DNA from: Mucinivorans hirudinis
GTDB taxonomy: Bacteria; Bacteroidota; Bacteroidia; Bacteroidales; Rikenellaceae
Direction: 5' to 3'
Assembly: GCA_000723505.1 (NCBI GenBank)
Contig: HG934468.1
Span: 1,334,798-1,398,797 of the forward strand
DNA: 64,000 nt
The stretch's first letter is position 1. Each line of letters opens with the position of its first letter. The position numbers and the translations under genes are program-made. The notes beneath the pieces are model-generated. The model worked only from the letters and a program-made list of their open reading frames with translations, was not told the DNA's origin and ran no database searches. This document shows, piece by piece, positions 6,075 through 39,169 of this stretch.

Positions 6075-7037
6075 CTATTTATTTGCTTCATCGGAAATTC
6101 TGCGCATTGTCTCCTCAATGGGGGTATATTCCAAACCTACTGCACGCTCTATCTTGCTTCCATCATACAATGATTTACTAGTCAGATACTTAATCATATG
6201 TTTGCGAATCACAGGAATAATCAACGAAGCCACAACCAATGCACCTCGACCGACTCTTATAAAGGGTAAACGTCTACCACCGACCCGATTGACCAAGCCG
6301 ATTATCTGCCTGAACGACAGATTGTGTCCCGAGAGTATATACCGTTCACCCCAAGCCTCGGGCTTCTCTGCCAATAGACGCATAGCCCGCGCTACATCCA
6401 CCACATCAACATATCCGACAATCCCATCAGTATAAAAAGGGATGCTAAACCTCCGCGCCACGCCAAGGAGCATTTCAACCTCTGCCCCACTCTTGCCTCC
6501 GGTGCCCAAAACCACCGACGGATTGACCACCACAGCACGTAAACCCTGCTTCACTCCGCGCCATACTATATTTTCACTCAAGAACTTACTACGCGAATAT
6601 GCCGCCGCTGTCGCAATACCGGTAAATGGAGTCTGCTCATTGGTCTGCTCAGGGTAGGATGCCGTGCCCAGTGCAGCTATCGAGCTGATATGCACAAGAG
6701 AAGCTCCGCACTCCAAGCAGCTATCCACTACATATTCGGTCAGTTCTACATTACTAGAAACTATCTGTTCCTGCGAACCCTGAATATCGACAATCGCCGC
6801 ACAATGAAAAACTATATCCCTGCCCGAAAATGCATCGCGAATCTGCTCAAAAGAATTAGTATCGACCATCACATACTCCACCCCACTAACTCCGTAGCGC
6901 GACAAAATCTCCTCTAACCTCCTCTTAGACCCCTCGCTGCGCAACATCACCGCCACATTACTCCATCCCGCACGCAACAATTCGACAACCAAGTGACTGC
7001 CAATCAAGCCCGTTGCGCCGGTGATGAGGGTTTTCAT
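6075..7037 (-). CDS. NAD-dependent epimerase/dehydratase (extended SDR)
   Basis: 320 aa. The Rossmann glycine motif GATGLIGS occupies residues 7-14, and a YSRSK active-site Tyr-Lys pair near residue 147 follows a SS(I/A) serine region (HISSIAALG). These are the hallmarks of the extended short-chain dehydrogenase family (dihydroflavonol reductase or NDP-sugar epimerase-like). The substrate cannot be told from sequence. Hydrophobic stretch GALVVASLIIPVI near residue 265 could make it membrane associated. The start codon is immediately preceded by a 9 bp tandem repeat array, and no promoter consensus is visible. Confidence 0.82.
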   Translation of the reverse strand: MKTLITGATGLIGSHLVVELLRAGWSNVAVMLRSEGSKRRLEEILSRYGVSGVEYVMVDTNSFEQIRDAFSGRDIVFHCAAIVDIQGSQEQIVSSNVELTEYVVDSCLECGASLVHISSIAALGTASYPEQTNEQTPFTGIATAAAYSRSKFLSENIVWRGVKQGLRAVVVNPSVVLGTGGKSGAEVEMLLGVARRFSIPFYTDGIVGYVDVVDVARAMRLLAEKPEAWGERYILSGHNLSFRQIIGLVNRVGGRRLPFIRVGRGALVVASLIIPVIRKHMIKYLTSKSLYDGSKIERAVGLEYTPIEETMRRISDEANK

Positions 7038-7040
7038 TTG

Positions 7041-7120
7041 TTAGGACTGGTGGACTGGTAGGACTGTTAGGACTGTTAGGACTGATAGGACTGATAGGAC
7101 TGGTAGGACTGATAGGTCGG
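7041..7120. repeat. 9 bp tandem array (TAGGACTGN units)
   Basis: About eight to nine degenerate copies of the nonamer TAGGACTGT/A/G run up to a closing TAGGTCGG. The array begins four bases upstream of the epimerase start codon and ends 12 bases before the tRNA-Arg gene. Related nonamers occur in at least six other spacers in this window. Confidence 0.9.
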
Positions 7121-7132
7121 CTCTAAAATATG

Positions 7133-7204
7133 TAGCTCCTCCGAGACTCGAACTCGAATCTAAGGTTTAGGAAACCTTCGTTCTATCCCTTGAACTAAGG
7201 AGCC
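7133..7204 (-). tRNA. tRNA-Arg(CCT)
   Basis: A full cloverleaf folds on the minus strand. The acceptor GGCTCCT pairs with AGGAGCT, with a terminal G-U. The anticodon stem AAGGT/ACCTT encloses loop TTCCTAA, with anticodon CCT at 7171-7169. The T arm is TCGAG-TTCGAGT-CTCGG. The discriminator is A and no CCA is encoded. It lies between the nonamer array and fabH, about 24 bases beyond the fabH stop. Confidence 0.93.
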
Positions 7205-7228
7205 TTAATTTAGAGTTTAGATTTGGAA

Positions 7229-8239
7229 CTAAACTCTGCTCATTGTTCCTCCATCGTAAGCCCATTTGAGGTAGATCGCACCCCAAGTAAAGCCGCCGCC
7301 GAAGGCTGCAAGTATCAGATTATCACCCTTTATCAAACGGCTTTCATAGTCCCACAAACAAAGGGGTATTGTCGCCGCCGTTGTGTTGCCAAACTTCTGT
7401 ATATTTACCATACAATTCTCCTTATCCAACCCCATTCGGTTGGCAACAGCATCAATGATACGCATATTAGCCTGGTGAGGAACGAGATAGCGAACATCTT
7501 CCGAATAGAGGTTGTTGCGCTTCATCACCTCCACCGACACATCAGCCATATTGGCAACCGCCGCCTTAAAAACGGGCTGTCCCTCTTGATATACATAGTG
7601 CCACTTTTTCTCAACAGTCTCATAAGTAGAAGGATAGCACGAACCACCGGCTTTCATATGAAGGTGCGCCGCGCCGCCGCCGTCCGAGTGGAGGCTGGCA
7701 TCCAAAACGCCATAACCCTCCGTACTAGGCTCTAAAAGCACAGCAGCAGCAGCATCACCGAAGATGGGGCAGGTCGAACGGTCGGTATAGTCTATGATAG
7801 AGGACATCTTGTCCGCACCCACCACCACAACTTTCTTGTGTGTACCCGTCTCAATATATTTAGATGCCGTCTGCAGAGCAAACAAAAAGCCACTGCACGC
7901 CGCCGAAATATCGAATGCAAAGGCTTTTTTACAACCCGTCTTGTGGGCAATCAAATTACCCGTGCTCGGGAAAAACATATCGGGAGTGACGGTAGCACAA
8001 ATCAACAACTCGATTTCTTCGGGATTCGTCCCCGTCTTCTCCAATAAATCCTGAACCGCTTTGGCTCCCATATAGGAAGTACCAAGCCCCTCGCCTTTCA
8101 AGATGTGTCTCTCCTTGATACCTATGCGTGTCATAATCCACTCGTCGGTGGTATCAACCATTCGCGCCAACTCTTCGTTGTCGAGAATATATTCGGGCAG
8201 ATATGCCCCAACGCCTGTTATTGCAGCAGTAGTTTTCAT
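7229..8239 (-). CDS. fabH: Beta-ketoacyl-ACP synthase III
   Basis: 336 aa from the ATG at 8239. An upstream ATG at 8311 in the same frame would add 24 residues read from microsatellite sequence and is rejected. It condenses acetyl-CoA (or another short acyl-CoA) with malonyl-ACP to start type II fatty acid synthesis. The triad is visible as Cys115 in ISAACSG, His255 in VPHQANMR and Asn285 in FGNTTAA. It is the last gene of the yceD-rpmF-plsX-fabH cluster, and a 23 bp inverted repeat separates it from plsX. Confidence 0.96.
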
Positions 8240-8268
8240 AGTTTGTGTGATTTGCGATATTGTGATTT

Positions 8269-8332
8269 GTGATATTGTGATATTGTGATTTACCCAATAT
8301 TTGAGTTTCAAATCACAATATCACAATATCAC
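8269..8332. repeat. Perfect 23 bp inverted repeat built from GTGATAT/GTGATTT heptamers
   Basis: Arms 8269-8291 and 8310-8332 are exact reverse complements with an 18-base loop. The arms are tandem copies of a GTGATAT-like heptamer, and two further heptamer variants lie just left of the first arm. The hairpin lies between the plsX stop and the fabH start, so it would form in an operon transcript. Confidence 0.9.
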
Positions 8333-8343
8333 ACATCACAACT

Positions 8344-9282
8344 CTAAGAAAATGCCTCTCTGATTTTTCCGACCACACCCGAACGCACGTTCGCTTCAGC
8401 CGTCAGAATCATATTTTTAATAGCTCGCGCAGACGAACAGCCGTGCCCGATTATCACGTTCGAATTGATGCCCAACACCGGAGTACCACCAACAGCCTCG
8501 TAATTGAGACCGGCTATAAACTCACTCTCACCCTCAAATGGCTTCAATATCTCATAAAAACCTTCTGCCATCTTGAGAATTGTATTGCCCATAAATCCGT
8601 CACATACAACCACATCGGCAACAGTACCGTCGAAGATATGTTTACCCTCGACATTGCCCACAAAGTTATACTTTTCTTGATTCTCCTTCAACAGAGGATA
8701 TGTTGCCTTTGCCAATAGGTTGCCTTTGCTCTCCTCCTCTCCTATGTTGAGCAGCGCCACTCGCGGACTATTCACGCCAAAAATCTCGCGTGCATATATA
8801 TTCCCGATAACGGCATATTGCAACAACACCTCGGGTTTGCAGTCAGCATTGAGCCCCGCATCAAGAATCGTTACCGGATTCTTGCCTATTGTTGCTATGT
8901 GAGTGGCAATCGTGGGGCGAATTACACCCTCGATTGGTTTAATCACCTGAAACGAGCCCACCATCATTGCCCCCGTGGACCCGGCACTTGCAAAACCGTC
9001 AATTTTGCCTGCCGCCAAGTGGGCAAACCCTACGGTTATACTCGAATCTGCTTTGCGCACAAAAGATTGAGCCGGGTGGTCACCCATCTCAATAACCTCG
9101 GTAGTCGGTACAATCTCAAGGAGAGATTGATACTCGGCAGGCAGGTAGCTCTCTATCTGTACACGGTCTCCGAAGAGCACTAACTTCGTATCACTTGATA
9201 GACTGGAAAGTGCCTCTATAGCACCCTCAACCGCTACTTTCGGAGCGAAATCGCCCCCCATTGCATCAAGACCAATTCTCAT
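8344..9282 (-). CDS. plsX: Phosphate acyltransferase PlsX
   Basis: 312 aa from the ATG at 9282, giving the normal family N-terminus MRIGLDAMGGDFAP. PlsX makes acyl-phosphate from acyl-ACP for phospholipid synthesis by the PlsY route. The family signatures DAMGGD and GSTGAMM are present. The frame stays open for another 45 codons upstream and would add ten Gly-Leu-Leu repeats from the 9 bp array. That extension is unlike any PlsX and is probably untranslated. It sits between rpmF and fabH, the order seen in many bacteria. Confidence 0.95.
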   Translation of the reverse strand: MRIGLDAMGGDFAPKVAVEGAIEALSSLSSDTKLVLFGDRVQIESYLPAEYQSLLEIVPTTEVIEMGDHPAQSFVRKADSSITVGFAHLAAGKIDGFASAGSTGAMMVGSFQVIKPIEGVIRPTIATHIATIGKNPVTILDAGLNADCKPEVLLQYAVIGNIYAREIFGVNSPRVALLNIGEEESKGNLLAKATYPLLKENQEKYNFVGNVEGKHIFDGTVADVVVCDGFMGNTILKMAEGFYEILKPFEGESEFIAGLNYEAVGGTPVLGINSNVIIGHGCSSARAIKNMILTAEANVRSGVVGKIREAFS

Positions 9283-17643: not shown

Positions 17644-19662
17644 ATGAAACGTCTATTTTTTGCAATTATCATCCTTATCAGCATTTCGCCGCTTGTGGCA
17701 CGCGAGGTTATCAACCTGAATCGCGGCTGGCAATTCACCCCCGGTTGGGAGGTAAATAAGGGTAAGTACACGGAAATAAACCTGCCCCACACCTATAACC
17801 TCGATGCGCTCTCGGGCAAACAGGACTACTATCGCGGACTAGCTAACTACGTTAAAACCTTAGAAATACCGGTAACTTGGCGTAGTGATAAGGTCTTTTT
17901 GAGGTTCAAGGGGGTCAATCAGACGGCAGACCTCTATGTCAATAGCAAACACGTGGGTCAGCACAAGGGCGGCTACACGGCATTCGGTTGGGATATAACC
18001 CCATTCCTGCGCTTTGGCGAGCGCAACACACTGTGGGTGAGGGTTAATAACGCGCCGGATTTGGATGTTATGCCACTGGTGGGTGACTTCAATATGTATG
18101 GGGGCATCTATCGCGATGTGGAGATGATTGTTGTGCCCAAGACCCATATCGACCTCGAGAATTTCGGCAGCTTCGGCGTGTTCGTCACCCAAAACAGCGT
18201 CAATGAAGAGAAGGCGGAAATCACCGTTACGACAACCGTTACAGGCGATCCAAACGACAATGCCGAGGTGAAATTATATCTGCGCGACGAGCAGAAACAG
18301 ATATTAGACTCCGTAGTTCGCCGCGTACGCATTGAAAATGACGGAGACACCGAAATATCACGCCAATTCACAATCAACAATCCACACCTATGGAATGGCA
18401 CGATAGACCCCTATATGTACAACGTTTTGGTGGAGGTGAAGAGCACCAAGACGGGCAGCAGGGCAGATTTTGTGGAACAAAATTTTGGGGTGCGTTACTG
18501 GGAGGTAAACAAAGATAATCAATTCACCCTCAACGGTAAACCCTATAAGATTCAGGGCGTTGCCAAGCATCAGGACTACGCGGGATTGGGTAACGCCGTA
18601 AACAGGCTCAACCACGAGCGGGATATGGAACTGATGTTGGAGATGGGGGTAAATGCGGTGCGTTTGGCACACTATCCCTATGACAGCTACTTCATTGAGC
18701 TGTGTGATAAGAACGGGATAATCGTTTGGAGCGAGATACCGTTTGTCGGTCCGGGCGGCTATCGCGATAAGGGGTTCAATGACTCGGAAGCATTTATGGA
18801 TAATGGCAAACATCAACTTGTGGAGATGATTCGCCAGCACTACAACCACCCCTCGATTCTCTTTTGGGGACTCTTCAACGAGTTGATTCAGCAGGGTGAC
18901 GACCCGGCACCATATGTCCGCGAACTTAACGAGCTGGCTAAGGAGGAAGACCCCTCGCGTCTGACTGTCGCGGCGAGCAATCAGGATGGCGACCTCAATT
19001 TCATCACCGACTTGATAGCATTCAATAAATATTTCGGCTGGTATGGCGGTATGCCCGCGGATTTGGAGCAGTGGGGCAGAACACTACGGCGCGACTGGGC
19101 AAAGTTATTGGTGGGTATCAGCGAGTATGGGGCGGGCAGCAGCATCTATCATCAGCAAGACACCCTAATGAAAACTATTCCCACAAGTTATTGGCATCCC
19201 GAAAATTGGCAGACCCACTTCCACGAGGAGCACTGGAAAATAATCAAGGACAAACCCTACTTCTGGGGTACTTTCGTGTGGGCGATGTTCGACTTCGGAG
19301 CAGCACACCGCACCGAAGGGCAGCTTGCGGGGGTAAATGACAAAGGATTAGTAACTTTTGACCGCGCAATAAAAAAGGATGCTTTCTATTTCTACAAAGC
19401 GAATTGGAATAAGGAAGACCCCTTTGTCTACATAGCCGAGCGGCGCAATCGAGAACGTAGCTCCCCTGTGCAGACAATCAAAATATACTCCAACCAAGAG
19501 CAGGTGGATGTAACCATTGACGGCAATCGTACAATATGTTTGCAGTCGGATGGTTACGGCACTTTCCTATGGAAGGATGTGGAGTTGGGCAAGGGTGAGC
19601 ATACTGTGGAGGTAGTAACCCCCGATGGCAGTCGCGATAGTGTAACATTCACCATAAGGTAG
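17644..19662 (+). CDS. Glycoside hydrolase family 2 protein (beta-galactosidase/beta-glucuronidase type)
   Basis: 672 aa. Signal peptide about residues 1-20. The GH2 sugar-binding jelly roll (about 25-175), immunoglobulin-like domain (about 180-285) and TIM barrel (about 290-570) follow in order, with a short C-terminal beta domain. The acid/base is Glu413 in GLFNE, and the nucleophile is Glu494 in ISEYG. It removes beta-linked galactose, glucuronate or mannose from glycans, probably in the periplasm; the exact sugar is not decidable here. The stop codon is directly followed by the ATG of the S24/S26-like peptidase gene. Confidence 0.9.
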   Translation: MKRLFFAIIILISISPLVAREVINLNRGWQFTPGWEVNKGKYTEINLPHTYNLDALSGKQDYYRGLANYVKTLEIPVTWRSDKVFLRFKGVNQTADLYVNSKHVGQHKGGYTAFGWDITPFLRFGERNTLWVRVNNAPDLDVMPLVGDFNMYGGIYRDVEMIVVPKTHIDLENFGSFGVFVTQNSVNEEKAEITVTTTVTGDPNDNAEVKLYLRDEQKQILDSVVRRVRIENDGDTEISRQFTINNPHLWNGTIDPYMYNVLVEVKSTKTGSRADFVEQNFGVRYWEVNKDNQFTLNGKPYKIQGVAKHQDYAGLGNAVNRLNHERDMELMLEMGVNAVRLAHYPYDSYFIELCDKNGIIVWSEIPFVGPGGYRDKGFNDSEAFMDNGKHQLVEMIRQHYNHPSILFWGLFNELIQQGDDPAPYVRELNELAKEEDPSRLTVAASNQDGDLNFITDLIAFNKYFGWYGGMPADLEQWGRTLRRDWAKLLVGISEYGAGSSIYHQQDTLMKTIPTSYWHPENWQTHFHEEHWKIIKDKPYFWGTFVWAMFDFGAAHRTEGQLAGVNDKGLVTFDRAIKKDAFYFYKANWNKEDPFVYIAERRNRERSSPVQTIKIYSNQEQVDVTIDGNRTICLQSDGYGTFLWKDVELGKGEHTVEVVTPDGSRDSVTFTIR

Positions 19663-20100
19663 ATGTATCGGCAACGGGTAGTTGAGAATGCCGCACTCTT
19701 CGCTCAGGTGGAGCAGGCGGTGGCAGAGGGGCACAGCGTTACAATCACCGTGCGCGGGGTGTCGATGCGCCCGCTGCTCAGAGACCTCAAGGATAAGGTG
19801 GTGTTGGAACGGGCAGATAGATTGAGGGTTGGCGATATAGCACTCTTTCTCTATGGCGATAGACACCTATTGCACCGCATCCGCCGAATAGTGGGCGAAC
19901 AAATAACGATGCAGGGCGATGCACTCCTACAGACCACCGAAGAGTGCACCCGAGAACAGGTCATAGCAACTGTCAGTAAAATTATCTACCCCTCGGGCAG
20001 AGTAGTAAGCATTGATTCGGCTATTTATAAATTAAAATATGCCATTTGGCTCTCACTGCCCAAAATCATAAAGCGCGTTGTGCTACGCTTATTAAAATGA
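19663..20100 (+). CDS. S24/S26-like serine peptidase domain protein
   Basis: 145 aa. The segment VTVRGVSMRPLLRD-like (ITVRGVSMRPLL near residue 35) carries the catalytic serine of LexA/signal-peptidase folds, and VGDIALFLYGDRHLLHRI (about 65-85) is the next conserved block. The usual Lys of S26 enzymes is replaced in this block by His-Arg, as in the short S24/S26 proteins of Bacteroidetes. A C-terminal hydrophobic stretch (YAIWLSLPKII) may touch the membrane. It begins right after the GH2 stop and overlaps the PqqD-like gene by ATGA, so all three may be co-translated. Substrate unknown. Confidence 0.72.
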   Translation: MYRQRVVENAALFAQVEQAVAEGHSVTITVRGVSMRPLLRDLKDKVVLERADRLRVGDIALFLYGDRHLLHRIRRIVGEQITMQGDALLQTTEECTREQVIATVSKIIYPSGRVVSIDSAIYKLKYAIWLSLPKIIKRVVLRLLK

Positions 20101-20366
20101 AAATAAAACAAAACTTCAAAGTCCGCAACATTGCCGGCGAAAACATTGTCGTAAACTTCGGGCAGCTCAATGTCGATATGACTCGGGTTATTGCCCTGAA
20201 CGACACAGCATTAGAGCTTTGGAATTACTTCCGCGAGAGAGATTTCTCGAAGGAGGATGTGGCGCAATATCTCCAAAATGAGTATGAAATTGCCGCCGAG
20301 CAAGCCACGGGTGATGCGGCGCGGTGGGTCGATGCTCTTGCCGGTGCCAAACTTTTGGAAGAGTAG
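20097..20366 (+). CDS. PqqD-like peptide-binding (RRE) protein
   Basis: 89 aa from the ATG at 20097, overlapping the peptidase stop in ATGA; a longer upstream start at 20046 would run inside the peptidase gene. The fold pattern (FKVRNIAGENIVV, then VIALNDTALELWNYF) is that of PqqD, a winged-helix peptide chaperone used by many RiPP systems. No radical SAM protein, precursor peptide or transporter lies beside it; a fumarase gene follows after 65 bp. A role with the preceding peptidase in maturing a small peptide encoded elsewhere is inference. Confidence 0.75.
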   Translation: MKIKQNFKVRNIAGENIVVNFGQLNVDMTRVIALNDTALELWNYFRERDFSKEDVAQYLQNEYEIAAEQATGDAARWVDALAGAKLLEE

Positions 20367-20431
20367 GTGTGGGGTGATTTACCCGTAGCTCGTATTTCCA
20401 CTCATAGAAACAACAATAACAGATAAAGACA

Positions 20432-22036
20432 ATGTCAAACTTCCACTACCAAGAGCCATTTCCGCTCTCGGGCGACACGACGGAATATCGCCTGCTTACA
20501 AAAGACTACATCTCGATAGAGGAGTGCGCCGGCAGACGCATCCTGAGGGTAGACCCGCGCGGTCTCGAACTTCTGGCAAAAGAGGCTTTTGCCGATGTAT
20601 CCTTCTACCTTCGCTCTTCGCATATGCAGAAGCTCGCCAATATCCTCAAAGACCCCCAAGCAACCGACAACGACAAGTTTGTTGCCTACACACTGATTAT
20701 AAATCAGGTGGTCTCAGCCGAAGGCGAGCTACCCACCTGTCAGGATACGGGCACGGCTATCATCTCGGCTCTCAAGGGCGAAAATGTCTATACGGGGGCA
20801 AACGATGCCCTGCACCTGAGCCGTGGCGTTTATGAAACCTACAAAGAACGCAATCTACGTTACTCTCAGGTTGTCCCATTCACAATGACCGAGGAGAAGA
20901 ACAGCGGCAATAACCTCCCCGCACAAATCGACCTATATGCCACTCAGGGTAATGCCTACAAATTTCTCTTTATGACCAAGGGGGGCGGCTCGGCAAACAA
21001 AACCTTTTTGTACCAACAGACCAAAGCCCTGCTCACGGAAGAGGGACTCACTAAGTTCATAAAGGAGAAGATAAAGGACTTGGGCACGGCAGCTTGTCCG
21101 CCATACCACTTGGCTGTGGTTATCGGGGGAACATCGGCTGAGGCAAACCTTGCGGCTGTGAAAAAGGCATCGGCACACTACTATGACAACCTTCCGACGG
21201 AGGGTAACGAGGGTGGACAGGCTTTTCGTGATTTGGAGTGGGAACGCCGCATAGAAAAGATTTGCCAAGAGAGTGGTGTTGGTGCACAATTCGGCGGAAA
21301 GTATCTGGTTCACGATGTGCGCGTTATTCGTCTTCCGCGCCACGCCGCCTCGTGTCCCGTGGGCATCGGTGTGAGCTGCTCGGCAGACCGCAATATAAAG
21401 GGGAAAATCACCGAGGAGGGAATTTTCCTGGAACAACTCGAGAAGAATCCTGCACGCTTTCTGCCCGAGCTTGCACCACACTTAGCTCCGGCTGTGGAAA
21501 TCGACCTGGATAAGGGTATGGATGCCGTGCTCAAAGAGCTTAGCAAATACCCGATTAAGACGCGCCTCAACATCAGGGGTACGCTGATTGTGGCACGCGA
21601 TATTGCCCACGCCGAACTCAAAAAGTTGGTGGATGCGGGCAAACCTCTGCCCGACTACTTCAAGAACCACCCGGTCTACTATGCCGGCCCGGCGAAGACT
21701 CCTCAGGGTATGGCGAGCGGCAGTTTCGGACCGACCACAGCAGGACGTATGGACTCCTATGTCGATTTGTTCCAATCGCTGGGCGGCTCTATGGTGATGG
21801 TTGCCAAGGGCAACCGCAGCAAAGCCGTAACGGATGCTTGCAAGAAACACGGCGGTTTCTACCTCGGCTCAATCGGCGGACCGGCGGCAGTCTTGGCTAA
21901 GGATAGCATCAAATCGAGCGAGGTTATCGACTTTCCGGAGTTGGGAATGGAGTCAATCCGTAGGATATATGTAGAAAATTTCCCGGCATTTATCATCGTC
22001 GATGACAAGGGTAATGATTTCTTTGAGGCACTCTAA
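20432..22036 (+). CDS. Fumarate hydratase class I
   Basis: 534 aa, the size of single-chain (FumA/FumB-like) iron-sulfur fumarases. It interconverts fumarate and malate. Cluster ligand cysteines are visible as Cys103 in PTCQDTG, a Cys in TAACPPYH and a Cys in AASCPVGIG. The C-terminal half is the beta-domain ([15 protein letters not shown]). In an anaerobe it serves the reductive branch leading to succinate. The GH18-like gene starts 10 bases after its stop. Confidence 0.95.
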
Positions 22037-30979: not shown

Positions 30980-32806
30980 CTATGCCAACTGCTGCATCTC
31001 AATGAGTTTGCTGTATAGCCCGCCCTTAGCCATCAACTCGGCGTGCGTGCCCTGCTCAACCACAACTCCTGCCTCTATAACGATGATTTTGTCGGAATGT
31101 TGTATTGTGCTCAGGCGATGAGCAATAACAAGCGATGTTCGCCCTCTGAGCAGGTTGGCAAGAGAGTCCTGCACCAAACGTTCACTCTCGGTGTCCAATG
31201 CCGAGGTCGCCTCGTCCAGAATCAATATCTCGGGATTGCGCAAAACAGCTCGTGCAATGCTAAGTCGCTGACGCTGACCGCCGCTGAGTTTCACCCCGCG
31301 GTCGCCGATATTGGTCTGATACCCCTGCTCGGTCTCCATAATAAAGTTATGGGCATTTGCCACTTTTGCAGCCTCTATGATTTGCTCCATCGTTGCCGCG
31401 TGGTTGCCCATACGGATGTTGCCCTCGATGGTGTCGTTGAAGAGGATAGTCTCCTGCGCCACGATTCCGAGCTTGGCACGGATGGAGTCTGTGGTGTATT
31501 CGGTGATGTCCTTTTTGTCGATGGTTATAGTGCCCTTGGTGGGGTCATAGAAGCGGGGGATAAGGTCGGAAATTGTGGATTTGCCGCCGCCGGAGGGTCC
31601 CACCAACGCAACCGTCTGCCCCTTTGGTATTGTAAACGAAATATTGTGCAACACCTCCCGCTCTTCATAAGAGAAACTTACGGAGTTGAACGCTATTTCC
31701 GCTGTGAAATTTTCGAGGGGCACGGCTGTGGGTTTGTCCCTGATTTCGGGCTTGGTGTCCATAAGTGCAAGGACGCGTTCGCCGGCTGCAATACCCTGAT
31801 TTATGTTGCCAAAGGCATCTGAAATGGCACGGGCGGGGCGGGTAACCTGCGAGAAGATGCCAAGGTAGGTGATGAAAGCGGCTGTGCCAAGCTCCGCGCC
31901 CATAATCATATTGCCGCCATAGACCAAAATAAACGAAAGGGAGGTGATGCCCAAGAACTCACTCACGGGAGAGGCAGATTGCTGCTTGCGGGCAATGGAG
32001 CGTTGAATATCAGAGTAGTGTTTGTTTTGCGAACGAAACTTCTCGTCCACATAATTAGTTGCATTATAGCCTTTTATTGTTTTTATTGCGCCCAGAGACT
32101 CATCCAAGAGCGAGACCATTTCGCCAAAACTCTCCTGCCCAGCGGAGGATGCTTTTTTAAGTTTTTTTACGATGGTGGCAATGAAAAGCGCGATGAAAGG
32201 TAGCACGGCAATGGCAAAGAGAGTGAGTTTCCACGAGATTGCCAGCAGCATAAATATGTATGAACCAATGAGAAATGGTTCTCGAAAGAATACTTGCAGG
32301 GTGCTGGTTACGCAGTATTGCACAACTTGTACGTCGGAGGTGATTTTGGAGATGATGTCGCCTTTGCGTTCGTTGCTGAAAAAGGAGGCTTGGAGGCGGA
32401 TGACGTTGTTGAAAAGGGTGTCGCGCAACTGTTGGAGTGTATGGATGCGTAGATTCTCCATCGTGCGCTGAGCTATGTAGCGGAAGAGATTTGAAAGAAG
32501 TGATATTATGACAGTCATAATAGCGAGGAGCATAAACAAGTCCTTGACTGTATATCCTGTGCCCATAACCTTGTATAACGAGTAGTTGAGCACACCATCA
32601 AACCACTCTTTCGAGAGGGCAAAATCGGGCATCTCTCGCGCCGTCTGCACCATTGCATCGGGGTCTATCATCGTGCCTATGATGGGTATCAACATACCGA
32701 ATGTGGCGGCATTGAAGAGGGAGTGAAGTATGATAGATACGGCGTATATTGTTCCGTATTTAGAGTATGGTTTGCCAAAGCTGAGTAAGCGGAGATATGT
32801 TTTCAT
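30980..32806 (-). CDS. ABC exporter, fused permease and ATPase (MsbA-like)
   Basis: 608 aa. Six transmembrane helices occupy about residues 15-330, then a nucleotide-binding domain. Walker A is GPSGGGKST, the ABC signature is LSGGQRQRLS, and Walker B is ILILDEATSALD. The H-loop histidine is in VIAHRLST. The half-transporter acts as a homodimer; lipid A flipping (MsbA) is the commonest assignment for such a gene in a Gram-negative, but multidrug or peptide export cannot be excluded. No transport partner is adjacent. Confidence 0.92.
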   Translation of the reverse strand: MKTYLRLLSFGKPYSKYGTIYAVSIILHSLFNAATFGMLIPIIGTMIDPDAMVQTAREMPDFALSKEWFDGVLNYSLYKVMGTGYTVKDLFMLLAIMTVIISLLSNLFRYIAQRTMENLRIHTLQQLRDTLFNNVIRLQASFFSNERKGDIISKITSDVQVVQYCVTSTLQVFFREPFLIGSYIFMLLAISWKLTLFAIAVLPFIALFIATIVKKLKKASSAGQESFGEMVSLLDESLGAIKTIKGYNATNYVDEKFRSQNKHYSDIQRSIARKQQSASPVSEFLGITSLSFILVYGGNMIMGAELGTAAFITYLGIFSQVTRPARAISDAFGNINQGIAAGERVLALMDTKPEIRDKPTAVPLENFTAEIAFNSVSFSYEEREVLHNISFTIPKGQTVALVGPSGGGKSTISDLIPRFYDPTKGTITIDKKDITEYTTDSIRAKLGIVAQETILFNDTIEGNIRMGNHAATMEQIIEAAKVANAHNFIMETEQGYQTNIGDRGVKLSGGQRQRLSIARAVLRNPEILILDEATSALDTESERLVQDSLANLLRGRTSLVIAHRLSTIQHSDKIIVIEAGVVVEQGTHAELMAKGGLYSKLIEMQQLA

Positions 32807-33131: not shown

Positions 33132-35471
33132 TTAGTTGTTAGTGATAGAAATAAACTTCGCAGATTTACTAGTTGACCACTTCAAAGTATTACCTTGAAT
33201 GGTAGTACCTGAAGTATTATCACGCATACCTTTGTTTATCCAAAGAGTTACATTAGTTGTTGTACCAAATGGCTGAACATCAGAGATAGTGAACTTTTCG
33301 TCAAACTTCATTTGTGAAGCATTTGGAGCATTAAGAGCATTGGCACCGGTAATAGAAGTAACCGCCTTGAAGTGGAATACAGATGCACCATTACCCTCAA
33401 ATGCACTTGCAGGAATTGCAGTCAATACATCAAATACAAGACCTGTATTGCCAGTAGTGTTTTTGAACAAAGTTGTACCTTTGAACGCAGACACACCAAT
33501 TGTAGTAAGTTTGCTTACATCCAACTTAGGAAGTTTGTTACAATCTTCAAATGCCGATACACCAACTTTAATAGGCTGACCCGCAACCTCAACAAGTTTA
33601 GTACAGCCTTTGAATGACTCAAAACCAACCTCTGCATAACCTGTTACCAAGAATTTCTCAAGCGAAGTAACGCCTTCAAATGCTTGGTCACCAATGTTGT
33701 TAGATGGTGCTTGCGCATTGATTACTCCGGTAACATTCTTAATTGAGCTACCTTGGAATGCTTGAGCACCGATACTACCAAGAATTTCAATTTCTGTAAG
33801 AGCTGAACAGCCATAGAATGCAGACTGTGCGTTAATCAAGTCTACTTTAGCATTAACTTTATCTAGATTGGTTGCACCATAGAATGCGTTACGGTTAACG
33901 ACTATACCATCTTTAAGTTTTATCTCTTCCAATTTATTGAAATTTCTGAATGAAATAAAGTCAGTATTAAATTCTTCGCCAATCTTTGTCAATGCAGATA
34001 GGTCTGCATATTTCAATGATACTTTATTAAACAAACGAGCAAATGTATTATTATTCTCTAATTGAGTATTTCCTGTCCATTTTGGAAGAACAACTGTTTC
34101 AAGTGAAAGACCTGTAGGGAACGCATTATTTGCAATCGTTACAACGTTAGGAAGAACAACTTTTTTAAGAGAAGTCATACCGTTGAATGTTTGAGCAGGA
34201 ATGTTCTCAACCAACTCAATAGATACTATCTCAGCTTGTGTGAATTTCTTCAACAAAGCAAGGTTCGCATCATTTTGAGCTGAATAGATAACAATGTTTT
34301 CAAACTCAGTAAAATCAACATCAACACCGTTCCATACAACTGCTGTTTTAGCAGAATTAAGAGTATTAGCTAAATTGCCTGAGTTAACAATCAAAGAACG
34401 ATCAGGACCATTAGTAACAATATAGGGCTCAGCTTTAATATCAAGAACAGGCGCTTTTACGAAGTTACCATATGTTTTAGGCCAGTTGTTAGACGTTTCA
34501 TACTTTTTATTCAACTCTACGTTTTGGAAGAGATAAGTAACCTCATATTTCTCAGTGAAATCGCGTTTAACGCTGTTGATAGGCAAGTATAATTTTGCAT
34601 CATCCTTCCACTGCCAACTAGTCCATTTGGAAATCAACGAAATCGGGCTTGCATCCGCACTTGTCGTAATCACTTTGTCTTTGAAATTATATGTAGCACT
34701 TGTTCCGAAGAAGATAAGCGATGGGTCTTTAACAATAGTACCGTCAGCTTTCTTCTTACCCATTGTTTCAAGTTTAACTGCTAGCAAATCACCCAAGAAA
34801 TCTTTATAACCATCATAATTCTCAGTGCGGAATACCATAGCTGTGTATGGACGCTCGAAAGTAAGTTTGAGGTTGTTAGTAACGTTGTTGCAATTGTTAT
34901 TGAAAGGAGAAGCAACGTAATCTACTTGCTCAGCCCACATAAACATATTTTGAGCGGGTAGAGAACCTTCTACGTTATTTTGATAGTAGCTACCGCCCTC
35001 AACTGTTGTATTGTAGTAAGGCAAAGTAGCATTCTCAACATTTGCATCAACAACGACAGATGTTGGCCATACTGCACGGAAAGAAGCTTTCTTGCTTTGG
35101 TTTTTTGCGCCGTCTTGAAGAAACCACAACCAATTGTAGCCTGTGGCAGTAAACACACCATTCAAAGCTGAACGAGTAGCTTTATAAAATGTCCGGAAGT
35201 TATCTTTATAGCCACTTGTATTCTGAGAAACAGGATTATACGATATCTCAGCGTTATTGTAGAAAATTTTGATTTGGTCTTCTTCAGCATACCAGAAGAA
35301 TGCTTTGTCAGGAGTTTCGAAAGGATCGAATTGAGCCTTAGTATCTGTGCCCAAGTCAGCTGAGAAAACGATACCCTTTGCGTCCATCTTCTCCTCTGTT
35401 TGCGTATCAAGCTGCTTATTACAGCTTGCCAAGAGTGCAACAGCACCCATAAACAATAAAAGTTTTTTCAT
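33132..35471 (-). CDS. Surface lipoprotein with fimbrillin-like N-terminus and BspA-type leucine-rich repeats
   Basis: 779 aa. Lipoprotein signal with Cys at about residue 17 (LLASCNKQ). The N-terminal third (about 30-330) resembles fimbrillin or SusF-type beta-sandwich modules, with FSADLGTDTKAQFDP. From about 400 to 720 there are at least eight LRR_5 (BspA-type) units with the core xIGxxAFxGCTxLxxV, for example VGVSAFEDCNKLPKLD and IGDQAFEGVTSLEKF. The last 40 residues form a small beta segment. BspA-like proteins bind host or partner-cell ligands; the ligand here is unknown. A 34-codon ORF lies 66 bases upstream in the same transcript. Confidence 0.82.
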   Translation of the reverse strand: MKKLLLFMGAVALLASCNKQLDTQTEEKMDAKGIVFSADLGTDTKAQFDPFETPDKAFFWYAEEDQIKIFYNNAEISYNPVSQNTSGYKDNFRTFYKATRSALNGVFTATGYNWLWFLQDGAKNQSKKASFRAVWPTSVVVDANVENATLPYYNTTVEGGSYYQNNVEGSLPAQNMFMWAEQVDYVASPFNNNCNNVTNNLKLTFERPYTAMVFRTENYDGYKDFLGDLLAVKLETMGKKKADGTIVKDPSLIFFGTSATYNFKDKVITTSADASPISLISKWTSWQWKDDAKLYLPINSVKRDFTEKYEVTYLFQNVELNKKYETSNNWPKTYGNFVKAPVLDIKAEPYIVTNGPDRSLIVNSGNLANTLNSAKTAVVWNGVDVDFTEFENIVIYSAQNDANLALLKKFTQAEIVSIELVENIPAQTFNGMTSLKKVVLPNVVTIANNAFPTGLSLETVVLPKWTGNTQLENNNTFARLFNKVSLKYADLSALTKIGEEFNTDFISFRNFNKLEEIKLKDGIVVNRNAFYGATNLDKVNAKVDLINAQSAFYGCSALTEIEILGSIGAQAFQGSSIKNVTGVINAQAPSNNIGDQAFEGVTSLEKFLVTGYAEVGFESFKGCTKLVEVAGQPIKVGVSAFEDCNKLPKLDVSKLTTIGVSAFKGTTLFKNTTGNTGLVFDVLTAIPASAFEGNGASVFHFKAVTSITGANALNAPNASQMKFDEKFTISDVQPFGTTTNVTLWINKGMRDNTSGTTIQGNTLKWSTSKSAKFISITNN

Positions 35472-35537
35472 TTTTTTTGTGAATTTTGTTTTTTTAATGA
35501 TTGTTCCGATTCGATTGACTTACCGGCCCGATGACTT

Positions 35538-35642
35538 CTAAGCTTCGTCTACGCCAGGGGGGACAACCGATTGAGCGATGCCGCTCTCCACGGCAACCTC
35601 AACTATCTCCAATTCAGGAGACTGATAAATTTCTTTTTTCAT
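35538..35642 (-). CDS. Small 34-aa peptide ORF upstream of the LRR lipoprotein
   Basis: Start ATG at 35642, stop TAG at 35540. The product begins MKKEIYQSPELEIVEVAVES and ends GVDEA, with an internal GIAQSVVPP. It is acidic, with no signal peptide. The pattern K-Y-x-SPE-x-EIVEV is, to my recollection, one seen in very short Bacteroidales proteins near surface lipoprotein genes; I cannot confirm it without a search. It lies between a good promoter (35823-35852) and the LRR lipoprotein. A poly-A tract but no strong Shine-Dalgarno precedes the start, normal for this phylum. Function unknown. Confidence 0.6.
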   Translation of the reverse strand: MKKEIYQSPELEIVEVAVESGIAQSVVPPGVDEA

Positions 35643-35822
35643 TTCTTTGTTTTTTGGTTAATAATATTTTTTTTTCTTTACTTCCAAATAGTTATCACCC
35701 TCATTAAAAAGTATTATCACACAGCAACCATACAAAAATAAATCAACTATAACACTGTGAGCCAGCGAAATAAGCAATTAAAAAGGTCTAAAAAGGTCGT
35801 GTTTACGTACAGAGACACACCG

Positions 35823-35852
35823 CAAAGTTATAAAAAAATCTTATAAACCAAA
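35823..35852 (-). promoter_or_regulatory. Promoter of the 34-aa ORF and LRR lipoprotein unit
   Basis: TTTG (35852-35849), 18 bases, then TAACTTTG (35830-35823). The predicted leader of about 175 bases precedes the small ORF. Confidence 0.65.
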
Positions 35853-35917
35853 AAATATTTATCTTTTTTTGGTAAATATTCATTGAACGAAAGGCGTATA
35901 AAACAGCCACAAAGAAG

Positions 35918-35946
35918 CAAAAAAAAAGAGGGGCATAAAGCCCCTC
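35918..35946 (-). terminator. Terminator of the alpha-oxoamine synthase gene
   Basis: GAGGGGC (35928-35934) and GCCCCTC (35940-35946) form a 7 bp stem with an ATAAA loop, followed on the minus strand by a run of nine T. Confidence 0.85.
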
Positions 35947-35949
35947 GCA

Positions 35950-37206
35950 CTAACCATTCATATCCGGCACATCGCCCACGTAAGCCCCGCTCAGGAGCTT
36001 GTCGCGACAGGCTTTGAAGCAATTCAATGTATACTCAACATCCTCCAAAGTGTGTAACGCCGTGGGGATTATCCGCAAGATTATCTCCCCCTTAGGAATA
36101 ACCGGATAGACCACCACCGAGCAAAACAAATTATGATTCTCCCTGAGATCGGCAACCAGATTAGTAGCCTCACCAACACCACCCTTCATATAAACAGGAG
36201 TTACGGGAGACTCGGTGCAGCCAATCTCGAAACCAGCATTCTTGAAGCCGCCTTGCAGGGCATTGACAACAGTCCAAAGCCGTTCCTTATACTCGGGATG
36301 ACTCTCTATCAGCTCCAAACGCTTGAGAGCACCAATCACCATAGGCATAGGCAAAGACTTGGCATAGAGCTGCGAACGCATATTATACCTGAGGAAATTA
36401 ACAATCTCAGGCTCAGCTGCTACAAACGCCCCAATGCCTGCCATAGACTTTGCAAAGGTAGAAAAATGGATGTCCACACCATCCTCCACACCAAAATGCT
36501 CCGCAACTCCCGCACCACGAGCACCCATAGTACCAAAACCGTGAGCATCGTCCACCAAAAGACGGAACTTATGGTCGCGCTTCATCGCCACAATCTCGTC
36601 CAATTTACCCAAGTCACCCTTCATCCCAAAAACACCCTCGGTTATCACAAGCACACCTCCGCCCTGAGCATCAGCCAACTTCTCGGCGCGAGCAATCATA
36701 CGGCGACAAATCTCCATATTATTATGAGGGTACACAAAGCGTTTGCCACCCTTTGCCTTGTGTATCAAAAGACCATCAATGATACAGGCGTGCGACTCGG
36801 AATCATAGACAATAACATCGTTACGCGTTGTGAGAGTGTCAATAATGGAGACCATACCCTGATAACCAAAATTCAACAAAAATGAGTCGGGCTTACCAAC
36901 AAACCTAGCAAGTCGCTGCTCCAATTCCTCGTGCCACTTGGTCTGTCCGCTCATCATACGCGCACCCATCGGAGCCGCCATACCAAAACGCGCCGCACCC
37001 TCCGTGTCTGCCTTGATAACCTCGGGATGGTTTGCCAGTCCCAAATAGTTATTCAAACTCCAGTTCAACATCATCTTACCGCGAAACATCATTCGCGGAC
37101 CGATTGCCCCCTCCAACTTAGGGAATGCAAAGTACCCGTGTGCCTGCTTCATATACATACCGATAGGTCCGCCGGCGTTGCTTTTGATTCTTTCGAAAAT
37201 ATCCAT
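35950..37206 (-). CDS. Alpha-oxoamine synthase (PLP-dependent acyl-CoA/ACP:amino acid acyltransferase)
   Basis: 418 aa from the ATG at 37206 (MDIFERIKSNAGG); the longer frame to 37275 reads through the promoter and is rejected. PLP features are visible: the substrate-site LNWSLNNYLGL, DDAHGFGTMG with the Asp that holds the pyridine nitrogen, and the Schiff-base lysine in STFAKSMAG. The family includes 2-amino-3-ketobutyrate CoA ligase, serine palmitoyltransferase and cysteate acyl-ACP transferase. In Bacteroidales the last two make sphingolipids and sulfonolipids. Substrate choice cannot be read from these motifs. It is monocistronic, with its own -7 box and terminator. Confidence 0.85.
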   Translation of the reverse strand: MDIFERIKSNAGGPIGMYMKQAHGYFAFPKLEGAIGPRMMFRGKMMLNWSLNNYLGLANHPEVIKADTEGAARFGMAAPMGARMMSGQTKWHEELEQRLARFVGKPDSFLLNFGYQGMVSIIDTLTTRNDVIVYDSESHACIIDGLLIHKAKGGKRFVYPHNNMEICRRMIARAEKLADAQGGGVLVITEGVFGMKGDLGKLDEIVAMKRDHKFRLLVDDAHGFGTMGARGAGVAEHFGVEDGVDIHFSTFAKSMAGIGAFVAAEPEIVNFLRYNMRSQLYAKSLPMPMVIGALKRLELIESHPEYKERLWTVVNALQGGFKNAGFEIGCTESPVTPVYMKGGVGEATNLVADLRENHNLFCSVVVYPVIPKGEIILRIIPTALHTLEDVEYTLNCFKACRDKLLSGAYVGDVPDMNG

Positions 37207-37228
37207 AGTTTTGGTTTTTATTAAATGG

Positions 37229-37236
37229 CAAAGGTA
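37229..37236 (-). promoter_or_regulatory. -7 box of the alpha-oxoamine synthase gene
   Basis: TACCTTTG on the minus strand, 22 bases upstream of the ATG; no TTTG at the expected 18-21 base distance, so the -33 element is weak. Confidence 0.5.
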
Positions 37237-37376
37237 ATAAATATTGATGCCATTGTATATAAGTATAAATACCAAATAAGTAGAGAAAAATAATTATATC
37301 TAATCATCATAAAAGCTTTGTTGCCATTCATTTCGTAGATGCCGCGCTTGGTCGCCGAATGACAGTATAATTACAT

Positions 37377-37420
37377 CAAAAAAGAGAGCGGGCTGCCCTC
37401 CGCAATGAAAGGCAGCCCGC
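37377..37420 (-). terminator. Terminator of the OmpA/TPR lipoprotein gene
   Basis: A perfect 10 bp stem, GCGGGCTGCC (37388-37397) with GGCAGCCCGC (37411-37420), is followed on the minus strand by CTCTCTTTTTTGA. It begins 24 bases after the stop codon. Confidence 0.9.
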
Positions 37421-37444
37421 AATCAATATAATGTTCCGTGAAGA

Positions 37445-39169
37445 TTATCTCTTAACTTTGATAATTACGATTTCAACTACTTCTGTAACAGTTGCATAAG
37501 GCAAGAAGTTCACTTCTGTCTCAGCAAGTTGTTTCGCTGCAGGATTTTTCGCGATTGCTGATTTCAAGTTAGCAACCAACGCCTTAGCATCACCCTCTTT
37601 TGCTGCAATAACCGCCTTAACGTACTCTGCACGCCAAGTGTTCATTGAGCCAAATGCTGCCTTTGCTGCGGCAACATCGCCGTTCAACAACTGAGCAAGT
37701 GCCTTGTTGTAACCATCAAGTGAGTTGATAGCCGACGAGTAGTTACCCTCTGCCAAATCAACCAAGCCTTTGTTATACTTAGCCTCGGGAGCTGTTGATG
37801 CTGCGAAGAATTTAGCTGCCTCAGATTTTTTACCTTCAGACAAAGCTACAACACCAAGATTGTTGATAACCTGTGGATTAGAGTTGTTCAACGAAGCTGC
37901 TTTTGTGAAGTCAGCCTTAGCTGCTGCATAGTCTCCTTCCCAAGCCTTAACAACACCAAGGTTGTTCCAAGCGCGGAAATCATTATATTTGTCAGCTGCT
38001 GCCTTGTAGCATTTAGCCTTCGTTGCATTGTCTGTAAACAGAGTGGCTGCGAACAACATCTCCTCAACGGTAAGTTTATTGATATCAGAACCAACTGCTG
38101 CTTTAAGTTCTGCATCTGTCAAACCATCAACTTGTACGTTTACGGTCATCTTAGAGCGGCGAAGTTCAGGAAGAATCTTATCAGCCAATACTTTGAAAGC
38201 TGCCGTCATATTTTTAATCTCTTTGTCGCGAACTTGTGGGTCTTTGTACATAGAGAGAACTTGAAGGATAAGTGCCTTGTCAGGAATATCTGATGCTTGA
38301 ACCAACTCTTGGAAACCTTCCCAGTCTTCACCCATCGCGTTTACATCGAACACATCCTTAGGAGTACCGTCTTTTTTGAACTTTGTCTCCATAGCCTTCT
38401 TAGTGGTCTTACCACGGTCTGCAGAAAGCTTGTCATTGAGAGTCAAAGGACCGTCAGGAGAAGCGTAAGCCTGTGTGTAAACATCGCCTACTTTTTTCTT
38501 TGCATCACCCGTGTTGTCTTTGATAAATTGCTGAAGAGCAGATATTTCCGAAGAGTTCAACTGAGCAGCGCGAACGTCAGCCTTGTTGATTTGGAACATA
38601 ATCTTTGCAGACTCCTTTACATAAGTAGTACGAACAAACGCATCTGGAGCGATAGCTACCTTAGCATAGTTGTCTGCCATCATTTGCAAAGAGCTGACAC
38701 CGAATGTTACAGGAATTTCAGTATTATAATCGGTAAAGTTCTTAATCTTAGAACCCTGTTTAATACATTTAGCCTCAACGCGAAGAACGAGCTCCGAAAG
38801 ACGCATTGCGGGAGTGTAAGGGAACGAAAGTTGCTGACTGTAAGAACCACCTGCCTCGTAAGGAATCACCTTGTAGTTATCCTTAACCTTTTCACCCTGA
38901 AGGAATGTTGGCTGACCAACTACCTCGCCACCCGGATAAACCAAAACGGGAGTTACCTTCAAAACACCCCACTTGTGGAATGCCTTTGCAGGGAAATTAA
39001 CAGTGATAGTGCCGATTGCATTATCACCTTTAAGTGTCAAAAATTCGGGAGAACTGCTAACGGTAATTCCCGGAGCAGTCTTCTTCATCATCTTTGAGTA
39101 GCAATTACAGCTTGTTAGCAAAAACACCATACCAACTAGTGCCAAGCTGATGTGTAAGAACTTTTTCAT
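37445..39169 (-). CDS. OmpA-like and TPR-domain outer-membrane lipoprotein
   Basis: 574 aa. Lipoprotein signal with Cys at about residues 21-23 (LLTSCNCYS). An Ig-like region (about 35-165) is followed by an OmpA-like peptidoglycan-association segment (about 185-285, IMFQINKADVRAAQLNSSEI and YASPDGPLTLNDKLSADR). TPR-like helices run through the C-terminal half (WNNLGVVKAWEGDYAAAKAD and VINNLGVVALSEGKK). This order is typical of Bacteroidetes envelope lipoproteins that link the outer membrane to the wall. The specific role is unknown. A 17 bp tandem array lies in the 5' spacer. Confidence 0.82.
   Translation of the reverse strand: MKKFLHISLALVGMVFLLTSCNCYSKMMKKTAPGITVSSSPEFLTLKGDNAIGTITVNFPAKAFHKWGVLKVTPVLVYPGGEVVGQPTFLQGEKVKDNYKVIPYEAGGSYSQQLSFPYTPAMRLSELVLRVEAKCIKQGSKIKNFTDYNTEIPVTFGVSSLQMMADNYAKVAIAPDAFVRTTYVKESAKIMFQINKADVRAAQLNSSEISALQQFIKDNTGDAKKKVGDVYTQAYASPDGPLTLNDKLSADRGKTTKKAMETKFKKDGTPKDVFDVNAMGEDWEGFQELVQASDIPDKALILQVLSMYKDPQVRDKEIKNMTAAFKVLADKILPELRRSKMTVNVQVDGLTDAELKAAVGSDINKLTVEEMLFAATLFTDNATKAKCYKAAADKYNDFRAWNNLGVVKAWEGDYAAAKADFTKAASLNNSNPQVINNLGVVALSEGKKSEAAKFFAASTAPEAKYNKGLVDLAEGNYSSAINSLDGYNKALAQLLNGDVAAAKAAFGSMNTWRAEYVKAVIAAKEGDAKALVANLKSAIAKNPAAKQLAETEVNFLPYATVTEVVEIVIIKVKR

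Follow-up and report, generated by a model that had tools for sequence, protein, structure and literature searches.

The window analyzed here is a stretch of 64,000 nucleotides of the Mucinivorans hirudinis genome (contig HG934468.1, positions 1,334,798 to 1,398,797), and its minus strand carries at 35538-35642 a 34-aa small ORF with an ATG start, whose product, MKKEIYQSPELEIVEVAVESGIAQSVVPPGVDEA, is a probable precursor peptide. The peptide has a net charge of -5 and no hydrophobic signal segment was seen in its sequence, in agreement with an earlier note on this DNA that had described it as acidic and without a signal peptide. Sixty-six bases separate its stop codon from the ATG of the following gene (33132-35471, minus strand), which codes for a 779-aa lipoprotein that combines BspA-type LRR with an N-terminal part resembling pilins/adhesins. 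The match of this partner to Pfam LRR_5 (E 4.9e-26) and its lipobox-like start (LPAM_1, 16.6 bits, under the cut-off of 20) bear out the BspA-type lipoprotein that the note had placed at this distance. The next gene after it encodes an MsbA-like ABC transporter (30980-32806, minus strand; TIGR02203, 486 bits with a cut-off of 602), which is a weak candidate exporter. The note had also put the small ORF behind a good promoter. This did not hold for a sigma-70 promoter, as a scan of 34000-38500 listed nothing on the minus strand from 35263 to 36382, but an exact match to the Bacteroidota-type pattern TTTG-N18-TAACTTTG is present on the minus strand at 35823-35852. From this promoter, transcription would start at about 35817 and the 5' UTR of the small ORF would be roughly 175 nt long. 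Additionally, a terminator-like hairpin is found 3' of the upstream gene (35946-35928, minus strand). The promoter and the hairpin together suggest that the small ORF is probably transcribed together with the downstream surface lipoprotein gene, apart from the upstream gene. In the whole window, the pattern TTTG-N17-21-TANNTTTG gave nine matches, the mean in shuffles being 1.44, and could be an aid to mapping other transcription units here.

The 34-aa ORF is real and is a member of a conserved coding family. A leave-one-out profile, made of the 41 other rows of our small-ORF profile A2, placed the window copy at the top of the 989 window ORFs of at least 20 aa (45.4 bits, E 2.9e-13); the next-best window ORF had E 1.6, and 2000 shuffles of the window peptide reached at most 11.7 bits. 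This confirmed the ORF proposed in the earlier note. The family is found in Rikenellaceae and in some other genomes of the order Bacteroidales. A first protein search of 61 Rikenellaceae genomes found 15 with matches (E of 1 or less), often several per genome, and each of these alignments began at residues 1-6 of the window peptide; profile A2 found matches in 54 of 120 Rikenellaceae genomes, some of which hold a dozen or more, the highest number being 17. At the level of the order, 11 of 247 genomes matched the narrower profile A1, at least one of these matches (L070) being unrelated. L050, which has no Met before the motif, was left out of the 30 loci considered for A1, and the hand-picked A2 omits L039, L043, L044, L049, L050, L052 and L059 from the first set and L066, L067, L068, L070, L071, L075, L081, L086 and L087 from the order-level set.

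Most family ORFs are 34-60 aa long (69/73 as trimmed), the window copy being the shortest of the 73 peptides. In their N-terminal half the conserved residues keep fixed distances, in the pattern YxxPx[VIL]E..E[VIL]x[VIL]ExG[FI]AxS, and a variable acidic tail follows. Numbered from Tyr0, the conserved positions are Pro3, a hydrophobic residue at 5, Glu6, Glu9, hydrophobic residues at 10 and 12, Glu13, Gly15, Phe/Ile16, Ala17 and Ser/Thr19. Among 72 relatives (YxxP was required of every row and L205 was dropped), position 5 is V, I, L or M in 65, and the counts are 68 for Glu13, 69 for Gly15, 67 for Phe/Ile16, 60 for Ala17 and 69 for Ser/Thr19 (Ser in 63, Thr in 6). Furthermore, Trp, Phe or Tyr occurs within the last six residues of 63 of the 72, and the window copy has no aromatic residue near its end. 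The family is under purifying selection, with pN/pS values of 0.19-0.36 in 8/8 of the closest pairs of members (peptides at least 55% identical, with members shared between pairs and the window copy not among them), so the check proposed in the earlier note did not refute a coding role. For the window copy, the genus yielded no close orthologue, its relatives there being too distant for dN/dS, and the M. hirudinis genome gave no paralogue with A1 (E up to 10) or A2 (E up to 5). A search for a solved relative of the window peptide returned one match only, at E 5. The pattern ATGAARN{3,9}TAYNNNNNNCCN gave no signal (44 matches vs 45 in the control), and a plasmid search with the neighbouring gene returned nothing. 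In the same genus, genome G001 holds a YxxP ORF before a lipoprotein gene, below threshold.

The placement beside a lipoprotein gene is also a property of the family. A lipoprotein gene comes next on the same strand for 64 of the 70 distinct peptides whose downstream sequence reaches 500 nt; the two genes overlap in 9/64 cases and lie 1-94 bases apart in 55/64 (median about 20). As background, a similar script called lipoprotein 140 of 607 ORFs, drawn from regions chosen near small-ORF loci. The 70 were obtained from 75 distinct peptides by leaving out L070 and L071, which as parsed are not family members, and three with less than 500 nt downstream; L204 was not parsed in this count. The script itself counted 61/70, and inspection by eye removed L043 (an ATPase) and added L037, L054, L067 and L146 to reach 64; the Fisher value that the script gives for a lipoprotein neighbour uses 61, not 64. 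The six peptides without a following lipoprotein gene are L043, L065, L074, L079, L080 and L205. When the window's partner was aligned with 21 other chosen ones, the lipobox Cys (Cys17 of the window partner) and one Trp were invariant in all 22. A Pfam scan of six other partners found LRR_5 in the three picked for likeness to the window's and nothing above cut-off in the remaining three. The model of the window's partner is of low confidence and gives weak support (mean pLDDT 55.5); in the PDB it is most similar to Bacteroides 'putative cell adhesion proteins' (E 2.7e-6), with FimA at rank 19. Its apparent product class, by a weak fold match, is that of the pilin/fimbrillin-like and BspA-type surface lipoproteins of Bacteroidales, and in the literature searched no paper pairing such lipoproteins with a small YxxP gene was found. 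Three peptides, found in two further families of the order, instead lie 21-75 bases behind the gene of a large secreted-looking protein (L091, 4304-9201; L092, 9990-14116; L093, 7274-10104). These include C10 peptidase, PKD and repeat proteins, and a Por secretion tail was over the Pfam cut-off in one of the three and below it in a second.

The YxxPxL motif of lasso leaders is held by a small PqqD-fold RRE protein. A gene for such a discrete PqqD-like RRE, of 89 aa, is located on the plus strand of the window at 20097-20366 (Pfam PqqD, E 4.3e-11); it is the sole match at E 0.01 or better in the M. hirudinis genome, and its product is a candidate leader-binding protein. The RRE model (pLDDT 87.2) is closest to TbiB1 with lasso leaders (E 5.8e-4, TM about 0.7) and also resembles TfuB1 with its leader, in agreement with a profile search of PDB sequences (TfuB1, E 2.7e-6). 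Residues N35 and D73 are invariant in the 27/27 aligned sequences. A weak alignment with PbaB1 (9x90; E 0.81) places them at chain positions 60 and 97, which by a single offset of 18 would be PbaB1 G42 and Q79; according to the available part of PMC13381572, these two correspond to N33 and D70 of LppB, the residues holding the leader Pro and Tyr. The RRE gene overlaps by 4 bases the preceding gene (19663-20100, plus strand), which codes for a signal-peptidase-like protease of the S24/S26 type and a candidate leader peptidase. A profile built on this protease hits signal peptidase I and SEC11A; the protease itself falls slightly short in Pfam S24 (E 1.5e-4, 21.9 bits vs a cut-off of 23.3) and is also below cut-off in NCBIfam, and its Ser34, His71 and Asp86 are invariant in 7/7 aligned sequences. 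Both genes sit between a glycoside hydrolase family 2 gene, whose stop ends at 19662, and a gene at 20432 that presumably encodes a fumarase (window 17644-22036, plus strand). No kinase or NTP transferase gene was seen beside them, unlike in the compact cassettes of some relatives.

According to a search with profile A3, an HprK-like kinase is present in 54 of the 120 Rikenellaceae genomes, including M. hirudinis, where the single match (G000:C1:2316701-2317531, minus strand; E 4.2e-63) is about 946 kb away on the contig. The M. hirudinis kinase has no Pfam match at E 0.01 and only sub-cut-off matches in NCBIfam, and its gene is adjoined by an NTP_transf_5 gene (PF14907, E 3.7e-41). The parts are spread over three places in this genome. 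Among 32 RRE regions in relatives, 14 contain protease and kinase genes, 16 lack both and the other 2 have only the kinase; in the same-genus genomes G001 and G003 the kinase, protease, RRE and ABC transporter genes stand in a row, and in G330 and G344, where the RRE gene is alone, the kinase gene is elsewhere, beside S26-like and ABC transporter sequence. Seen from the kinase, the best 80 of 567 loci, covering up to 8 kb on each side, include a protease in 72 and an RRE in 63. An MsbA-like transporter belongs to the cassettes of many relatives. With the profile of the LPP-type transporter, the one ABC type of exporter searched, the M. hirudinis genome gave only a baseline match, namely the gene at 30980-32806 (213 bits, the best matches in two system-less genomes being 211 and 234). 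Four partial matches to the LPP-type transporter were also seen at about 97677, 421140, 470046 and 543155 of G000:C1, in frames of 724-738 aa.

The small ORF, the RRE and the kinase occur together across the family. In 120 Rikenellaceae genomes, drawn the same way for A2 and for the PqqD search, small ORF and RRE are both present in 52, the ORF only in 2, the RRE only in 4 and neither in 62 (Fisher 1.4e-26); for the HprK-like kinase the corresponding numbers are 52, 2, 2 and 64 (Fisher 5.8e-29). Because the genomes are relatives of one another, these Fisher values make the observations look more independent than they are. Completeness is 54% and 59% in the two ORF-only genomes and 57%, 68% and 69% in three of the four RRE-only ones, and the fourth is a below-cut-off match in a 91% complete genome. 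G001 is one of the two kinase-only genomes, and its weak same-genus member L203 (profile E 1.25) was scored negative in these tables. Rows of A2 come from 12 of the counted genomes and those of the kinase profile A3 from four (G001, G003, G018, G321); in the genomes with handles above G300, which have no rows in A2, RRE and kinase are present in 36 of 37 ORF-positive ones. The association is also seen within genera of the first 61 genomes: three genomes of genus g15 have all three genes and two, 90-91% complete, have none; in genus g22 three have all and two, 99% complete, have none. At the genus level the Fisher value is 4.7e-5.

These parts resemble those of the linear polyphosphorylated peptides (LPPs) of Bacillota (Popov et al. 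2026, PMC13381572). According to the part of that article available to us, LPP systems consist of an RRE, a SipW-like protease, an HprK-like kinase, an NTP transferase and an MsbA-like transporter; the leader YxxPxVLxHQxIxFET is cut after the Thr at Tyr+15; the LppA core AQSNWK is phosphorylated at Ser3; and a Thr at the phospho-site is left unphosphorylated by the Bacillota kinase. Within these bounds, both systems have short precursors with a conserved N-terminal leader and a variable C-terminus, a YxxPx[V/L] leader motif (YQSPEL in the window copy) and a Ser, here a predicted phosphoacceptor, two residues after Ala, the AQS of the window being the AQS of LppA. They also share a discrete RRE with Asn/Asp, an equivalence that goes through the weak PbaB1 alignment and PMC13381572; a signal-peptidase-like Ser/His/Asp protease, whose catalysis is predicted here; an HprK-like kinase with a nucleotidyltransferase; and, in the same cassette in many relatives, an MsbA-like transporter. 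Compared with what the available text of PMC13381572 describes, the differences are a host of the Bacteroidales and not of the Bacillota, the absence of VLxHQxIxFET, in whose place stands [VIL]E[VIL]xE[VIL]x[VIL]ExG, and a Ser at Tyr+19 vs Tyr+18. Likewise, the precursors here are encoded in trans and mostly beside a surface-protein gene, many relatives having several of them, and M. hirudinis has no single cluster, its machinery being split over several places. On present evidence, the small-ORF system appears to work like that of the LPPs, with the full leader consensus and the single cluster lacking. The same available text calls LPPs restricted to Bacillota and their roles unknown. Bacteroidales RiPP clusters, from the same order of bacteria, were mined in PMC10352776, where the three passages located on PqqD and lasso belong to the reference list and glossary and where S24, S26, fimbril and Alistipes did not occur at word starts. 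The literature searched, mostly open-access and assessed largely from search results and abstract openings, contained no account of this kind of system in Bacteroidota.

All these data lead us to consider it likely that the ORF is the precursor of an LPP-type RiPP whose leader is bound by the RRE, whose Ser25 is phosphorylated and which is cut near Gly21/Ile22. The leader motif, the co-occurrence with the RRE and the HprK-like kinase and the RRE/protease gene pair in the window support this reading, and the peptide-precursor option of the earlier note is well supported by computation. The YxxPxL motif, at residues 6-11, belongs to a predicted leader MKKEIYQSPELEIVEVAVESG (35580-35642, minus strand), delimited by the spacing in the 72 relatives and the LPP leader register, and its binding partner would be the discrete RRE from 20097-20366. 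Ser25 of the AxS motif (codon 35568-35570, minus strand), the predicted phosphoacceptor, would probably be phosphorylated by the HprK-like kinase, and the nucleotidyltransferase encoded beside the kinase could possibly add a further group. The protease encoded at 19663-20100 would then cut next to Gly21/Ile22, releasing an acidic core of 12-13 residues; the predicted core IAQSVVPPGVDEA (35541-35579, minus strand) begins after Gly21. At this junction the window peptide reads ...ESGI-AQS..., with Gly at Tyr+15 followed by I-A-Q-S, which matches the LPP register within one residue. The LPP leader length would put the cut after Gly21 and the LPP core start after Ile22, an ambiguity of one residue. 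Of all this, the conserved coding family, the motif spacing, the co-occurrence, the position next to lipoprotein genes and the RRE fold are computational results; the joint transcript, leader binding, phosphorylation, cleavage, export and an action on the adhesin, if any, are deductions.

The most plausible of the other readings, which we still regard as unlikely, is a small cytoplasmic protein that stays unmodified and serves the co-transcribed lipoprotein as a dedicated partner (a chaperone or export helper) or as a regulator, a small regulatory protein having been the remaining option of the earlier note; the coincidence with RRE and kinase would then have another cause. The large lipoprotein gene that follows in 64/70 cases, the lack of a visible signal peptide and the acidic tail, which in 63/72 has an aromatic residue close to its end, are in line with this. 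It leaves unexplained, however, the YxxPx[VIL] motif and the co-occurrence with RRE and kinase genes, and also why small ORF, RRE and kinase each have a single match in the M. hirudinis genome; moreover, in three relatives the small ORF comes after a secreted-protein gene instead of preceding one.

This last arrangement also speaks against a regulatory leader ORF, in which translation or ribosome stalling would control the lipoprotein gene and the peptide itself would be irrelevant. This option, raised in the earlier note, fits the position of the ORF 66 bases upstream, probably on the same transcript, and the deduced 5' UTR of about 175 nt, and was not supported by the remaining data: N-terminal amino acids are kept at fixed spacing in 72 relatives and purifying selection was found in 8/8 pairs, the RNA fold of the 5' region is no better than that of shuffles (z -0.62, 27/100 shuffles at least as stable), and Rfam gave two matches, both far below gathering scores and on the other strand. 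We consider it very improbable.

A lasso peptide precursor has a minute probability in our judgement. The lead to a mechanism came from one of 29 family members weakly matching a lasso-precursor model: in this set there is one weak match to a paeninodin model (E 0.029) and one to a cyanobacterial lasso model (E 0.089). Lasso peptides of the paeninodin and TbiB1/TfuB1 types share with the present family a [Y/W]xxPx[L/V/I] leader and a discrete winged-helix RRE, the fold of our RRE being closest to lasso B1 proteins, and paeninodins also have HprK and nucleotidyltransferase genes, according to the available part of PMC13381572. The B2 peptidase (PF13471), in contrast, was above cut-off in 0/120 genomes, with eight weak matches and none in M. 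hirudinis, and the protease found here is of the signal-peptidase type; the lasso reading was rejected on the negative B2 search. Lastly, a chance ORF, which would suit the short length and the absence of a Pfam, NCBIfam or PHROGs family for the window ORF (29 scanned A1 members likewise had no match better than E 0.02, only isolated weak ones), can practically be dismissed in view of the leave-one-out profile, the shuffle control and the purifying selection in relatives.

Returning to the LPP-type precursor, one machinery in the relatives would serve many precursor genes in trans. A more tentative extension, to which we give rather less than even credence, is that one central RRE/protease/kinase set in Bacteroidales matures many small phosphopeptides, each encoded next to its own adhesin or secreted protein and serving as its ligand, maturation factor or attached group. 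If true, a large group of unassigned YxxP small ORFs in gut Bacteroidota would be accounted for. The LPP-type reading itself gives a testable function to a small-ORF family present in 54/120 genomes, and with it LPP-like biosynthesis would extend beyond Bacillota, with the precursors beside surface-adhesin genes offering a way to ask what such peptides are for. In other Bacteroidales, distant YxxP small ORFs occur in the kinase-cassette loci L245, L254, L277 and L285, and these are possibly the same kind of precursor with a changed cut region. Additionally, two contigs labelled as a Fibrobacter succinogenes MAG (L287, at 1049-1328 and 6310-9138, and L296) carry kinase and protease genes, L287 together with three YxxP small ORFs; the contigs could be mis-binned, or the genes could have been transferred to another phylum.
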